From: Halorubrum trapanicum
GTDB taxonomy: Archaea > Halobacteriota > Halobacteria > Halobacteriales > Haloferacaceae
Length of the DNA: 64,000 bases
NCBI RefSeq assembly: GCF_002355655.1
Contig: NZ_AP017569.1
Location: forward strand, 682,001 to 746,000
Direction: 5' to 3'
The notes beneath the pieces are model-generated. The model did no database searches. It was not told where the DNA came from and saw only the letters and a list, made by a program, of their open reading frames with translations. This document shows, piece after piece, positions 1,838-37,985 of the stretch; position 1 is the first letter of the stretch; the number at the start of each line of letters is the position of its first letter. The translations under genes and the position numbers were made by a program.

Positions 1838-2227
1838 ATGAAGACCACACGGCACGCGACCTACAACCTCAACTACCACATAGTGTGGTTGCCGAAGTAC
1901 CGCAACTCGGTACTCAAAGGCGAGGTCGCTGACCGTGTGCGAACCATCCTCCACGAAATTGCCGACGACAAGGGCCTCGAAATTCTCGATCTCACCGTCC
2001 AGCCCGACCACGTTCACCTGTTCGTCAGTAGTCCGCCCAAGAACGAACCGGCGCTCCTCGCCAACTGGTTCAAGGGGATCTCCTCACGCAAGTACAACCA
2101 CCGCTACGCCGACCACGACGGCGAGAAAATCGGCTGGGCGCGAGGATATTACGCAGGAACCGCCGGACACGTTTCCAGCGAGACTGTCGAGAACTACATC
2201 CAGCAACACACGGAGGGTGATTCGTGA
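1838..2227 (+). CDS. tnpA: IS200/IS605 family Y1 transposase TnpA
   Basis: A 129-residue HUH single-strand transposase. The metal-binding motif HVH lies at His58-x-His60 (context PDHVHLFV), and the likely nucleophilic tyrosine is Tyr120 in ENYIQQH near the C-terminus. The N-terminal YHIVWLPKYR is typical of the family. The length is close to the usual 130-150 residues. The stop codon overlaps the GTG start of tnpB (bases 2224-2227), so the two are probably translated together. All catalytic residues are present, which implies an intact enzyme. Confidence 0.95.
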   Translation: MKTTRHATYNLNYHIVWLPKYRNSVLKGEVADRVRTILHEIADDKGLEILDLTVQPDHVHLFVSSPPKNEPALLANWFKGISSRKYNHRYADHDGEKIGWARGYYAGTAGHVSSETVENYIQQHTEGDS

Positions 2228-3462
2228 CCGAACTCACAAAGACGCTGGAACTCAAACTGGTAGAGCCGAACGCTCACAAGCGGCGGAAACTCCGAGAGAC
2301 GCGAGAGGCGTACCAGCACGCCCTCCAAGACGCCTTCAACCAGAACTGTACCACACAGACTGAGGCGAACGACGTGGTGGTCACCTACAATCTGAGCGGG
2401 TACGCGAAGAACGCACTCAAACAGTACGTCCCGCAACTCACGACGACCTACAACGCGGGCGAGCTACACGACGACCACCCTGTGCGCTTCACGAACGAGG
2501 GGCTACGACTCGACCACAAGCCCGAGAACGCGATCGAGTGGTACGTCAAAATCCCGCACCACGAGGACTACCACCTCTGGCTGCCAGCACAGCCGAATCC
2601 CGAACAACGAGACTGGCTCGAAGCGGTGAACGCTGGTGACGCGACGATGGGTGAGAGCCGGCTGTTCGAGCGAGATGGGACGTGGTTTATCCACGTTACT
2701 GCCACTCGCAACGTGGAGGAACGCTCCGGGGCGTCTGCCGAGAAACGGACACCTATCGGAGTGGACATCGGGGAAGCGTCACTCGTCACGGTGTGTCACC
2801 GCGACGATCACGGGTCCCCGACCGCGCCCAAACTGTGGGCCGACGAGGGTAAGACCGTTCGTCAGCTCCGCAAAACCTACTTCACCGCCAAGCGCCGACT
2901 CCAGACGCGCGGAAGCGAGCGTATCGCAGAGTCCTTTGGCGACGACCTGTGGAACCGGATCGAAAATGTGTTCCACCATGTCACCCGCGAAGTCGTGGAG
3001 TACGCCGAGTCCATCAAGAACCCCGTGCTCGTTCTAGAAGACTTGACCTACATTCGGGAATCGATGGACTACGGCGAGTATATGAATCGGCGTCTCCACG
3101 GATGGGGATTCGCCAAACTCCATGCGCAGATACGCTACAAGGCCGTCGAGAAGGGTATCCCCGTTGAGACGGTACACCCGCGCAACACCTCGAAGGAGTG
3201 CCACGCGTGCGGTGAGGTAGGCTACCGCCCGCGTCAGGCGACGTTCACGTGTACGAACGACGCTTGCTGGGTGGGTGAGTATCAAGCGGACGTGAACGGA
3301 GCGATAAATATCGCAGACCGCTACCTCAGCGGAGAGAGCCATTCAAGAGAACACACGGATGGCGATGACTCGGCTGAGGATGGGGGGCGTTTGACCGCCC
3401 CACAAGACAGCCACGCCGATGCTGAGACCCAGCAAGGGACGCGTGGAACGAATGCGTCTTGA
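2224..3462 (+). CDS. tnpB: RNA-guided nuclease TnpB (IS605 OrfB family)
   Basis: A 412-residue TnpB starts at a GTG that overlaps the tnpA stop. TnpB proteins are RNA-guided DNA endonucleases related to Cas12 that help maintain their transposon. The RuvC triad is complete: Asp181 (GVDIG), Glu272 (LEDL) and Asp356 (ADVNGAINI). A zinc finger between the last two has Cys326, Cys329, Cys343 and Cys348, and the wider spacing of the second pair (CTNDAC) is slightly unusual. The protein ends in a polar tail. The guide RNA is expected to overlap the 3' end of the gene and the right end of the element. Confidence 0.95.
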   Translation: MTELTKTLELKLVEPNAHKRRKLRETREAYQHALQDAFNQNCTTQTEANDVVVTYNLSGYAKNALKQYVPQLTTTYNAGELHDDHPVRFTNEGLRLDHKPENAIEWYVKIPHHEDYHLWLPAQPNPEQRDWLEAVNAGDATMGESRLFERDGTWFIHVTATRNVEERSGASAEKRTPIGVDIGEASLVTVCHRDDHGSPTAPKLWADEGKTVRQLRKTYFTAKRRLQTRGSERIAESFGDDLWNRIENVFHHVTREVVEYAESIKNPVLVLEDLTYIRESMDYGEYMNRRLHGWGFAKLHAQIRYKAVEKGIPVETVHPRNTSKECHACGEVGYRPRQATFTCTNDACWVGEYQADVNGAINIADRYLSGESHSREHTDGDDSAEDGGRLTAPQDSHADAETQQGTRGTNAS

Positions 3463-4387: not shown

Positions 4388-4649
4388 GGCGCGCGCCTCC
4401 GAGCGGCCGCCGAAGGCGGCTGCGAGGAGCACGCGCGAGGGAGTCGCGAACGCCCGCAGGGCGTGAGCGACGAGGCTGGGGAGGCGTGAGGTGCGGAGCG
4501 GTGCTGTGCTGGGCGGGACTCAAAGGGGCAGTCGCGAGGACGAAGACGCGCGACGCAAGCACTGGAACGAGGGAGCGCCAGCGACCGAGTGAAGCGCACA
4601 GCGAGCGCATCGAGTCCTCGCGACTGGGGCTTTGGCGGTGTTGGCTGGA
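4388..4649 (+). ncRNA. Dispersed structured element, copy A (candidate ncRNA)
   Basis: This fills most of the gap between the crotonase and phosphoribosyltransferase genes. Arm 1 is GGGACTCAAAGGGGCAG at 4515-4531 and arm 2 is CTGGGGCTTTGG at 4624-4635. Just inside the arms, TCGCGAGGA (4532-4540) pairs perfectly with TCCTCGCGA (4615-4623). Upstream are a hairpin-forming GAGCGGCCGCC segment and the shared block GACGAGGCTGGGGAGGCGTG. Inside the loop is the shared GAGGGAGCG...CAGCGACCGAG. I see no credible protein gene here. This copy lacks the upstream TTTAAA seen in copies C, D and E. Confidence 0.6.
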
Positions 4650-5394: not shown

Positions 5395-5797
5395 GCGGCG
5401 AACACCTTCAAAGCCCCAGCCGCTTGCTTATAAATGGCTGACTGCGGATCAACGGCGAACACCTTCAAAGCCCCAGCCGTGAGGGCGACGCACGCTCGCT
5501 GTCGCCCGAAAATCTCCGATTTTCGGGATGACGAGACGCCTCCGGCGTCTCGAACCACGCGCTTCAGTCGCTCACTCCGTTCGCTCCTTCCAGTGCTTGC
5601 GTCGCCTGCGCCGCCCTCACGGCTGCCCCTTTGAGTCCCGCCCCGCACAGCGACCGCACCTCTCACCTCCCCAGCCTCGTCGGCCGCCCTCCGCTTCGCT
5701 CCGGGCGCCCGACTCCCTCGCGCGGTGCCGTTCGCGGCCGCCGAGGGCGGCCGCTCACGGGCACGCGCCGACCGCACCGCAGTGTTTGTTTATAAGC
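5395..5797 (-). ncRNA. Dispersed structured element, copy B (candidate ncRNA, two tails)
   Basis: On the minus strand, arm 1 is at 5639-5623 (GGGACTCAAAGGGGCAG) and arm 2 at 5476-5465 (CTGGGGCTTTGA). The enclosed stem is CCGTGAGGGCG (5622-5612) with CGCCCTCACGG (5487-5477), 11 perfect pairs and different from the copy A stem. An inner hairpin at about 5508-5530 contains CCCGAAAATC/GATTTTCGGG. After arm 2 the tail AAGGTGTTCGCC...TTATAAGC occurs twice in tandem. A TTATAAAC lies at the 5' side near 5793. This element occupies the 548-base gap between hpt and the DJ-1-like gene. Confidence 0.62.
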
Positions 5798-15473: not shown

Positions 15474-15840
15474 TATTTAAATAGCCGTGAGCGACGGCGA
15501 CGATCGCTTATAAATGGCAGGCGGTGGCGCGCCTGCGAGCGGCCGCCATCGGCGGCCGCGAGCCAGCCCGCGAGGGACGCCGCGAACGCCCGCAGGGCGT
15601 GAGCGGCGAGGTTGGGGAGGCGTGAGGTGCTGTGCGTGGCTGTGCGGGGCGGGACTCAAAGGGGCAGTCGCGAGGGCGAAGCACGCCGCAGCAAGCACCG
15701 CAGCGAGGGAGCGGCAGCGACCGAGCGAGGAGCGCAGCAAGGCGCGCGAGCCGTCGCGACTGGGGCTTTGGAGATCGGTATCCCCGCAGTCGGTCATTTA
15801 TAAACAGCCAACAGCAACACCGCGCTCTGTTTTATAAACG
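15474..15840 (+). ncRNA. Dispersed structured element, copy C (candidate ncRNA)
   Basis: The copy opens with TATTTAAAT and, about 32 bases later, CTTATAAAT. Then come a perfect inverted segment GCGGCCGCC/GGCGGCCGC and the shared GAGGTTGGGGAGGCGTGAGG. Arm 1 is at 15651-15667 and arm 2 at 15760-15771. The enclosed stem is TCGCGA/TCGCGA (15668-15673, 15754-15759), shorter than in other copies. The tail has two TTTATAAA boxes before 15840. The remaining bases up to 15986 hold no gene that I can support. Confidence 0.6.
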
Positions 15841-15986: not shown

Positions 15987-17159
15987 TCAGGCCTCGTAGT
16001 CCTGCGCCGCCAGCGCGTCCTCCAGCGCGGCGAGAACGTACTCGACGTTCTTCGGGCGAGCGGAGTAGCCCATACAGCCGATCCGCCAGATGTCGCCCTC
16101 CAAGTCGCCGAGGCCGGAGGCGATCTCCAAGTCGTACTCCTCCAAGAGGTGGTCGATGACGGCGCCGTCGTCGACGCCGTCGGGTACCCGTACCGCGTTG
16201 AGGCTCGGGAGCCAGTACTCGTCGGGAGCGTTCATCTCCAGCCCGAGTTCTTGAAGCCCCGACTTCAGCTCGCCGGCGACCTCGCGGTGGCGGGTCCACC
16301 GCTCCTCGATCCCCTCCTCGGCGACGAGCCGGAGCGCCTCGCGCAGCGCGTACACGTTGGTGATCGGCGCGGTGTGGTGGTACGAGCGGTCGTCGCCCCA
16401 GTACCCCTCAAGGAGGGAGAGGTCGAGATACCACGACCGGGGCTGCTCCTCGCGGTCGAGCACCTTGTCCATCGCGCGGTCGTTGAGCGTGAGCGGGCTC
16501 GCGCCCGGCGGACACGAGAGGCACTTCTGGGGGCCGGAGTAGGCGACGTCGACGCCCCACTCGTCGACGCGCATCTCCACGCCGCCGAGCGAGGTGACGC
16601 AGTCGGCGATCACCAGCGCGTCGTGGTCGTGCGCGATGTCCGTCAGCTCGGGGACGTTCGGCTGGAGGACCCCCGTCGAGGTCTCCGCGTGGACGAAGCC
16701 GAACACGTCCGGCTGGTGCTCGTCGAACGCGCGCTCGACGTCGACGGAGTCGAGCGGCTCGCCCCACTGGGCCTCCACCTCGACGACGTCGCCGCCCGCG
16801 CGCTCGGCCATCGACTTCATCCGGCCGCCGAAGTAGCCGTTCGTCGGGACGAGCATCGTGTCGCCCGGCTCGACGAGGTTGCCGATCGCGGCCTCCATCG
16901 ACGCCGACCCCGTCCCCGACACCGGGATCGTCCACCGGTTGTCCGTCCGGAAGGTGTACCGCAGCAGCTCCTGGACCTCGTCCATGATCTCGACGAACGA
17001 GGGGTCGAGGTGGCCGACCAGCGGCGTGCTCATCGCCTTCAGTACGCGGGGGTGGACGTCGCTCGGCCCGGGCCCCATCAGCGTGCGGTCCGGCGGCGTC
17101 AGCTCTCCGACTTCGGGCGCTCGCTCGTCGACGCCGGGCTCGGCTTGCTGGTTCGACAT
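15987..17159 (-). CDS. Class V aminotransferase (alanine/serine-glyoxylate type)
   Basis: A 390-residue PLP enzyme. The Schiff-base lysine is Lys212 in SGPQKCLSCPPG, preceded by the PLP-contacting ADCVTSLGG (Asp186) and the HAETSTG segment near 157-163. The N-terminus MGPGPSDVHPRVL and the C-terminal RIGCMG are characteristic of alanine-glyoxylate and serine-glyoxylate transaminases. It would move an amino group from alanine or serine to glyoxylate, or a related pair. The length is normal. The start is ATG 17159, with an acidic haloarchaeal N-terminal extension of about 25 residues. Confidence 0.92.
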   Translation of the reverse strand: MSNQQAEPGVDERAPEVGELTPPDRTLMGPGPSDVHPRVLKAMSTPLVGHLDPSFVEIMDEVQELLRYTFRTDNRWTIPVSGTGSASMEAAIGNLVEPGDTMLVPTNGYFGGRMKSMAERAGGDVVEVEAQWGEPLDSVDVERAFDEHQPDVFGFVHAETSTGVLQPNVPELTDIAHDHDALVIADCVTSLGGVEMRVDEWGVDVAYSGPQKCLSCPPGASPLTLNDRAMDKVLDREEQPRSWYLDLSLLEGYWGDDRSYHHTAPITNVYALREALRLVAEEGIEERWTRHREVAGELKSGLQELGLEMNAPDEYWLPSLNAVRVPDGVDDGAVIDHLLEEYDLEIASGLGDLEGDIWRIGCMGYSARPKNVEYVLAALEDALAAQDYEA

Positions 17160-22036: not shown

Positions 22037-22580
22037 GATATTTAAACAGGATCTGAGCGGCGACTGTCACTTATAAACGGGCGGCGGCGCGTGCCTGCGA
22101 GCGGCCGCCACCGGCGGCCGCGAGTCAGCTCGCGCGAGAGAGTCGGCGGTCCGGAGCGAAGCGGAGGACCGCCGACGAGGCTGGGGAGGGGTGAGGCTGC
22201 GTTCCCGCGAGCGACCGCCGGGAGCGAGCGGGAGCACGGAAGTCGCAGCCCGCGCAGCGAGCAAAGCGAGCGAGCAGGACCGTCTTCCGGTGGTGCGGTC
22301 GCTGTCGGGTGGGACTCAAAGGGGCAGTCGCCGGCGGCTTTGCCGCCGGCTGCCCGTGGCGCGTAGCGCCACGCTGCCGTGAGGCGGGCACAGGCGATGT
22401 AAGCACCGCAACGAGGGAGCGGTAGCGACCGAGTGAGGAGCGTGGTTCGAGAGAGCAAAGCTCTCTCGTCATCCCGAAAATCTCTGGTTTTCGGGCGACA
22501 GCGAGCGTGCGTCCGCCTCACGGCTGGGGCTTTGGAGATGTTCGGCGCCGCTCCGCTGTCAATCACTTATAAATGGCCGA
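22037..22580 (+). ncRNA. Dispersed structured element, copy D (largest, with inserted hairpins)
   Basis: The copy begins with ATATTTAAAC and, about 30 bases later, CTTATAAAC. The GCGGCCGCC/GGCGGCCGC hairpin and GACGAGGCTGGGGAGG follow. Arm 1 is at 22311-22327 and arm 2 at 22524-22535. Between arm 1 and the long stem, about 49 extra bases form two hairpins (CCGGCGG/CCGCCGG and GTGGCGC/GCGCCAC). The stem itself is CCGTGAGGCGG (22377-22387) with CCGCCTCACGG (22513-22523). The same inner CCCGAAAATC hairpin as in copy B is present. This fills the 615-base gap between the cysteine-synthase-like and CoA-binding genes. Confidence 0.62.
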
Positions 22581-37523: not shown

Positions 37524-37985
37524 ATTTAAATGCTCCTGAAAGGCAACGACAATCCCTTATAAAAGACGATGCGGTCGGCGTCGCCCGCGGCTCTGCCGCC
37601 GGCTACAAGAGGCGCGTCGCGCCTCCCTGCGTGCCGACGAGCGCCCGCAGGGCGCGAGTCGCACGCGCGAGGTCGCCGGCGCGTAGTCCGGCGACGAGGC
37701 TGGGGAGGCGTGAGGTGCTGTGCGGAGCGGTGCGGGGGGAGACTCAAAGGGGCAGGCGCGAGGAGCTCGGAGGCGACGTAAGGACCGCAGGGAACGAGCG
37801 GAGCGAGTGACTGAGGACCGCAGCGAGCGTCCGAGCTCCTCGCGCCTGGGGCTTTGGCGGTGTTCGCCGCCGATACACAGTCGATCATTTATAAGCGAGG
37901 AGCTGGGGCTTTGGCGGTGTTCGCCACAGCGGAGTCGTCAATTTATAAGTGAGCACGACGATGCTTCTCGGCCATTTATAAACGA
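37524..37985 (+). ncRNA. Dispersed structured element, copy E (longest stem, two tails)
   Basis: The copy opens with CATTTAAATG and, about 31 bases later, CTTATAAAA. Then come inverted segments, GGCGACGAGGCTGGGGAGGCGTG and arm 1 (ending GGGGCAG at 37755). Arm 2 is at 37846-37857. The stem GCGCGAGGAGCTCGGA (37756-37771) pairs perfectly with 37830-37845 over 16 bases and differs in sequence from the other copies. A second tail (CTGGGGCTTTGG at 37913-37924, then GCGGTGTTCGCC and ATTTATAAG) follows in tandem, and a third TTTATAAA lies at about 37975. It fills the 667-base gap before the DUF2249 gene. Confidence 0.65.

Follow-up and report, generated by a model that had tools for sequence, protein, structure and literature searches.

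Copies of the element in the window

The window (the whole 64-kb stretch of Halorubrum trapanicum DNA that was analysed) contains five blocks, A to E, that share two short arms, as an earlier note had reported from the letters alone. Arm 1 (GACTCAAAGGGGCAG) occurs exactly at positions 4517, 5623 (minus strand), 15653, 22313 and 37741; no further match was found in the window with up to three mismatches, and none of 100 shuffles of the window reached five. Arm 2 lies at 4624, 5465 (minus strand), 15760, 22524 and 37846, one per block, and copies B and E carry a second arm 2 located 57 bp beyond the first.

Each block was resolved into hairpins, here called P1 to P3, and conserved boxes, and its P3 was scored with R1, a covariance model of the P3 hairpin whose training set included copies A, C and E and excluded B and D. 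Copy A (4388–4649, plus strand) comprises P1, the box CGCGAGGGA (4434–4442), P2, the box GAGGCTGGGGAGG (4472–4484) and P3, the latter made of arm 1 (4517–4531), a stem with its loop, and arm 2 (4624–4635); R1 matches it at 4511–4635 on the plus strand (E 1e-20). Copy B (5395–5797, minus strand) has the start of P1 at 5772, boxes at 5714–5722 and 5666–5678, arm 1 at 5623–5637, a 59-nt double-hairpin domain inside the loop (5498–5556) and arm-2 units at 5465–5476 and 5408–5419 (E 1.4e-13). Copy C (15474–15840, plus strand) begins with a TTTAAA box at 15475 and a TTATAA box at 15507, followed by P1 from 15524, boxes at 15569–15577 and 15608–15620, arm 1 at 15653–15667 and arm 2 at 15760–15771 (E 8e-18); it belongs to a subfamily with inverted-repeat ends further out (the TIR subfamily). 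Copy D (22037–22580, plus strand) has a TTTAAA box at 22040, a TTATAA box at 22070, boxes at 22133–22141 and 22177–22189, a larger insert from 22196, arm 1 at 22313–22327, a 49-nt double hairpin at 22328–22376, the stem, a double-hairpin domain at 22444–22502 and arm 2 at 22524–22535 (E 4.8e-6). Copy E (37524–37985, plus strand) consists of a TTTAAA box at 37524, a TTATAA box at 37556, 5′ hairpins, a box at 37696–37708, P3, two arm-2 units and TTTATA boxes. Its P3 joins arm 1 (CAAAG-GGG-CAG, 37741–37755) to arm 2 (CTG-GGG-CTTTG G, 37846–37857) through a perfect 16-bp stem formed by GCGCGAGGAGCTCGGA (37756–37771) and TCCGAGCTCCTCGCGC (37830–37845), and the second arm-2 unit follows at 37903–37914, all on the plus strand. 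R1 matches copy E at 37735–37857 on the same strand (E 1.4e-20), and the fold has a z-score of -6.1 when computed as RNA and -5.8 as DNA. The earlier description of a perfect stem directly inside the arms fits A, C and E; the outer stem of B contains one wobble pair, and in D the 49-nt insert separates arm 1 from CCGTGAGGCGG.

An Rfam search of the whole window returned only two tRNAs above threshold, and a relaxed search of copy E together with eight loci of other genera gave chance-level matches only. Elsewhere in the window, an apparently intact IS200/IS605-type element (1859–3462, plus strand) holds the genome's only match to a Y1 transposase (tnpA), beside tnpB.

Anatomy of the element

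The general plan was drawn from 140 oriented matches, nearly all of them true copies. The element reads P1 (GGCGCG...), box CGCGAGGGA, P2, box GAGGYTGGGGAGG, a G/T-rich linker, GGGYGGGACT and P3. Within P3, arm 1 (CRAAG-GGG-CRG) leads into a stem of mostly 6–16 bp, a tip made of 2-bp helices between mostly purine symmetric loops, the 3′ side of the stem, arm 2 (CYG-GGG-CTTYG) and a small terminal hairpin. The P3 hairpin measures ~115 nt and the element 125–450 nt. Across the order the core arms take the form SRAAG-GGG-CNG / CNG-GGG-CTTYS and are preceded by GGGNGGGACT, while P1 and P2 stand upstream of P3 in Halorubrum and some other genera.

P3 is lengthened in 34 of the 140 copies, and extra double-hairpin domains are frequent. 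In the DNA fetched around copies, two double-hairpin cassettes and one larger insert occur only near these elements. The cassettes (5498–5556, 22328–22376, 22444–22502 and 22196 onward in the window) combine constant junctions with variable stems, and one double-hairpin cassette is also present within P3 of Haloparvum (L098), at a different position. The arm-2 unit is repeated in tandem (two to six units) in 55/140 copies, mostly every 57 bp. The spacing is sometimes 51, 54 or 66 bp and every unit ends in TTTATAA; comparable repeats of 51–58 bp follow P3 in other genera (L203, L211). GTGGGATTGAAAG may resemble haloarchaeal CRISPR repeats.

The fold is kept through two-sided changes

To examine pairing, we aligned 37 diverse P3 hairpins with MAFFT without structure and derived the pairing from that same alignment; a chance match (L024), a copy with an inverted loop (L067) and a few others were left out beforehand for a cleaner alignment. 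RNAalifold predicted 31 pairs, 23 of which change on both sides. Standard pairs fill 97.6% of the P3 pair cells, against 30–46% in shifted registers. The earlier note's proposal that the stem covaries between copies was borne out: 184 cells are changed on both sides, compared with 50.7±7.4 in shuffles (none of 500 reaches the observed value) and 7–17 in shifted registers, although such counts run higher than the number of compensatory events that arose independently, because copies within a genome are related and hairpin modules are swapped whole between them, so that pair cells are not independent. In other genera, 257 cells are changed on both sides in an alignment fitted to the R1 model.

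Covariation extends beyond the stem. The arms themselves covary around an invariant GGG/GGG internal loop, with GACTCGAAGGGGCAG pairing with CTGGGGCTTCGG in some copies and ...GGGGCGG with CCGGGGC in others. In P1, the triplet beside an invariant GA/GA internal loop, by which the triplets were located, pairs at all three positions in 66 of 86 copies and in at least eight forms (shuffles: mean 19, maximum 31), and P2 is paired at its base in 107/112 copies. Changes on both sides of pairs leave the fold intact and the G-runs are constant, and one strand of nearly every examined copy can form this fold.

The two strands are probably not equivalent in this respect. A symmetric DNA cruciform predicts equal numbers of G-T and A-C mismatches in paired columns, whereas we counted 26:8 in alignment A2 (one Halobonum hairpin and 36 from Halorubrum), 39:5 in other genera and, over 102 copies, 28:6 in the arms and outer stem. 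On a count by pair position, the G-T excess is significant in other genera only (20:5) and not in A2. Folding is thus probably a property of the described strand, whether RNA or single-stranded DNA, and the selection on structure put forward in the earlier note is supported for that particular strand.

Genomic context in Halorubrum

The 3.08-Mb genome, in which the window occupies 682001–746000 of contig C1, contains 176 arm-1 matches with up to two mismatches, compared with six for the reversed pattern. They are split almost evenly between the forward (84) and reverse (92) strands, and an orientation bias along the chromosome was rejected on these counts. All lie on the chromosome (C1), the remaining contigs C2 and C3 (245 kb) being free of them (p 5e-7 if random), and their spacing along the chromosome is more even than random (CV 0.775 vs 0.955±0.069, p 0.002). 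Of the 87 copies that were placed, none overlaps with a called gene, consistent with the dispersed and intergenic nature first noticed in the window. The arrangement of neighbouring genes relative to the element is mixed (+- 32, -- 24, ++ 18, -+ 13). Tandem spacing in multiples of three had hinted at a coding frame; the frames close early and none stays open across copies, in agreement with the earlier statement that no protein frame is shared. TTATAA-like boxes bracket the element, and 42 of 56 copies of the window's genome have such a box within 40 nt upstream, compared with 1/15 copies in another genome (G019).

Distribution across Halobacteriales

The exact arm string is found in 48/52 genomes of Halorubrum, at 0–168 copies per genome, and elsewhere in the family as single matches only. 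A restriction to the genus holds for this string alone, since the R1 covariance model reaches the whole order. The search of haloarchaeal genomes that the earlier note had proposed was strongly positive: R1 members were detected in 133/170 genomes of the family (E<=1e-3) and in 199/293 genomes of the order, representing 66 of 87 genera (E<=1e-5), and in none of the genomes sampled from the rest of the phylum. Named bearers of the element beyond Halorubrum are Candidatus Halobonum tyrrellensis and Halobacterium sp. KA-4, and Haloparvum sedimenti has a member by its arms.

In other genera, P3 appears alone, after P1/P2-like boxes, or in head-to-head pairs. Pairs in L205, L206 and L210 are separated by a spacer of ~20–30 nt with GATCAGCC-like letters, and in L204 and L212 just a CCCACCC remnant of the second copy seems to remain. 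In one genus with few copies per genome (g31), the element seemingly occupies the same site in two species, with alignable flanks (L213 and L215). Among 40 matches in other genera, 39 of which have letters at these positions, four G-runs are almost invariant (35–39 of 39) while the flanking pairs vary. The arrangement GGG-N-GGG-N7-8-GGG-hairpin-GGG matches the G-quadruplex consensus, and the conserved G-runs could, judged from this consensus, form a G-quadruplex.

Gain, loss and exchange of modules

The locus of copy D adjoins thrS, whose sequence in the window reaches 98% identity with the thrS genes of named Halorubrum species. The insertion at this locus is common to the window's genome, Halorubrum sp. 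Atlit-26R, H. distributum, H. xinjiangense and H. trapanicum, whereas other comparable Halorubrum loci have 14–66 bp at the site; the element thus comes and goes between species. Inside the shared insertion, the sequences read diverge in P2, in the stem and even in the arms, indicating that modules are exchanged. In L067 (minus strand, 16588–16710), the stem halves flank a P3 loop in inverted orientation, which points to recombination at the inverted repeat.

The TIR subfamily is marked by the ends GATAGCGGGAGTGAGTA, and both ends are present in 7/88 copies. No autonomous partner element was seen, all 20 end matches in the genome being located at these elements. One copy (L086) shows a possible 3-bp target-site duplication, and no exact-ended transposition event was observed. 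Terminal inverted repeats occur in a subset of copies only and do not explain the arms.

No match was found among 50,697 phage records, viral contigs gave only chance arm matches and no true member, and two plasmids carry a partial P1-side match; a haloviral or plasmid cargo was discarded on this basis. Relatives of the TnpB encoded by the window's IS605 element occur on 96 plasmids. Y1 transposase (PF01797) has no match in three many-copy genomes (G117, G079 and G160, with 77, 39 and 57 copies, respectively), and in 31 TnpB/TnpA loci we found seven R1 matches, on either strand and at scattered positions. With no consistent co-location and no Y1 in these three genomes, an origin as an IS605/TnpB guide RNA was rejected.

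RNA or folded single-stranded DNA

The apical loops identified with a simple stem finder include 91 GNA triloops out of 316, two GNRA loops and no UNCG loop, while shuffles gave 13 GNA, five GNRA and one UNCG of 433. In other genera, 16/36 apical loops are GNA and none is GNRA. GNRA and UNCG are the usual stable loops of RNA. In DNA, GNA and GNNA loops form exceptionally stable mini-hairpins (PMC4686876). The abundance of GNA and scarcity of GNRA and UNCG tilt the balance towards folded single-stranded DNA, short of proof. Where TATA boxes are present, they lie 10–30 nt before P1, and a start ~25–27 nt downstream would fall inside P1. Taken together, the GNA loops, mixed orientation, inconsistent promoter position and REPIN-like pairs point to DNA at least as much as to RNA. 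Of the structured RNA family suggested in the earlier note, the conserved covarying fold stands; the RNA label does not follow from it, as the pattern also fits folded single-stranded DNA.

Discussion

Blocks A to E represent an interspersed, non-coding repeat family of Halobacteriales chromosomes that is apparently undescribed. The earlier note did not recognise it, and we found neither an Rfam match nor a description among the openly available papers searched. Nearest in kind are REPIN/RAYT of bacteria and the SMR and PATE repeats of Haloquadratum. With REP/REPIN and RAYT (PMC3116915, PMC8049555), the element shares an intergenic location, many copies, hairpins kept by structure, occurrence singly or as head-to-head inverted pairs, and a copy number that varies between relatives. 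Unlike REPs, which are short (~20–40 nt), it spans 125–450 nt, has a multi-helix fold with a ~115-nt hairpin, carries the foot GGGNGGGACT instead of a GTAG-type foot and resides in an archaeal host; unlike REPINs, it has no Y1/RAYT gene in three many-copy genomes. SMR-A of Haloquadratum walsbyi is ~110 bp long with inverted ends and no transposase, its mobilisation is enigmatic, it targets PATEs, and it is reported absent from the large plasmid PL100 (PMC3119063). Compared by description only, it resembles the present element as a haloarchaeal repeat with inverted ends, without transposase and off the plasmid, whereas no covarying fold is reported for it. PATEs are IS200/IS605-derived, non-coding, palindrome-containing sequences of ~50–600 nt with many copies in haloarchaea (PMC3119063, PMC10544981). 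The present element is like them in these general features, but no TnpA/TnpB linkage was found for it, it is hardly present on plasmids, and it is missing from phages. MITEs share terminal inverted repeats with one subfamily only; most copies lack them, no partner transposase was seen, and P3 is conserved across the order without those ends. Large structured RNAs such as HEARO and group II introns have a modular fold of ~300 nt, optional peripheral hairpins and many copies. The present element is similarly modular and multi-copy, but it has no Rfam match and no associated ORF.

Our best reading, held tentatively and at somewhat less than an even chance, is an order-wide, chromosome-confined, REPIN-like replicator that acts as a folded single strand. 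In its favour are the covarying fold, the strand-specific G-T excess, the order-wide spread, the invariant G-runs, the species-specific gain or loss with module swapping at locus D, the intergenic location in both orientations on the chromosome only, the head-to-head P3 pairs resembling REPINs, and GNA triloops in place of GNRA. On the other side, no enzyme was found, and Y1 transposase is absent from three many-copy genomes; no transposition with exact ends was observed; a large non-coding RNA would likewise show a complex fold with optional domains and conserved unpaired letters; GNA triloops occur in RNA too; and mobile elements are not usually so scarce on plasmids. The close rival is a structured RNA family, to which we assign a substantial though minority probability: P1-P2-P3 would be transcribed and work as RNA, for instance as a protein-bound scaffold, with many of the copies either functional genes or copied pseudogenes. 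Covariation across all of P1, P2 and P3, strand-specific wobble pairs, unpaired letters conserved across genera, peripheral domains found inside the element only and TATA-like boxes just upstream in the window's genome all fit an RNA, and a Halorubrum virus is reported to express a PATE of comparable size (PMC10544981), though no phage record matches the present element. A normal start site falling inside P1, the near lack of boxes in G019, both orientations, the absence of a fixed neighbour, the 0–168 copies per genome and the few GNRA/UNCG loops speak against it.

The remaining explanations appear less probable, to differing degrees. If the hairpin and G-runs were a structural or protein-binding site for chromosome organisation, replication or repair and not a selfish repeat, the confinement to the chromosome, even spacing, intergenic location and bracketing TTATAA boxes would be expected; we consider this unlikely, given that copy number ranges from 0 to ~170 between congeners and sites are not conserved between species, and loss of nearby copies by recombination could also produce even spacing. 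Slightly more doubtful still is membership of a known transposon family as a plain MITE or PATE, with the hairpins as transposon ends. Such an origin suits the size range and the inverted ends of the TIR subfamily, but all end matches sit at these elements, the hairpin has no fixed place in TnpB loci, Y1 is missing from the three many-copy genomes, and transposon-rich plasmids are almost devoid of the element. Lastly, hairpins could be kept perfect by template switching or whole-module gene conversion without any selection on structure, in line with orthologous locus D copies that differ by whole modules and with the inverted loop of L067. We regard this as very improbable because it leaves unexplained the invariant G-runs beside covarying pairs, the unpaired letters conserved across genera, the isolated 2-bp helices with two-sided changes and the asymmetry between G-T and A-C.

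For the replicator, we propose the following mechanism. The fold would act as a single strand, more likely single-stranded DNA exposed in replication or repair than a dedicated transcript. A putative host protein would recognise the hairpin foot with its G-runs, which may form a G-quadruplex, a structure that the KCl-rich cytoplasm of haloarchaea would favour. Such recognition would let the element be copied into further intergenic positions within its chromosome, as RAYT does for REPINs, and copies would then swap hairpin modules by gene conversion, so that stem sequences turn over while the fold stays. The combined description, about which we are again tentative and marginally more guarded, is of an undescribed order-wide element of Haloarchaea, a chromosome-confined replicator or non-coding RNA built on a covarying single strand that folds into short helices with purine mismatches and is capable of a G-quadruplex, with a putative protein partner and swappable hairpin domains.

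A covarying fold found in 66 haloarchaeal genera, and in up to ~170 copies on a chromosome of 2.8 Mb, has apparently gone unannotated. If it is an RNA, it would be a major archaeal non-coding RNA family; if it is a DNA replicator, it would be an archaeal counterpart of REPINs without a RAYT enzyme, and hence with other machinery. In either case, the element offers a natural test of quadruplex formation by conserved G-runs in a KCl-rich cytoplasm.
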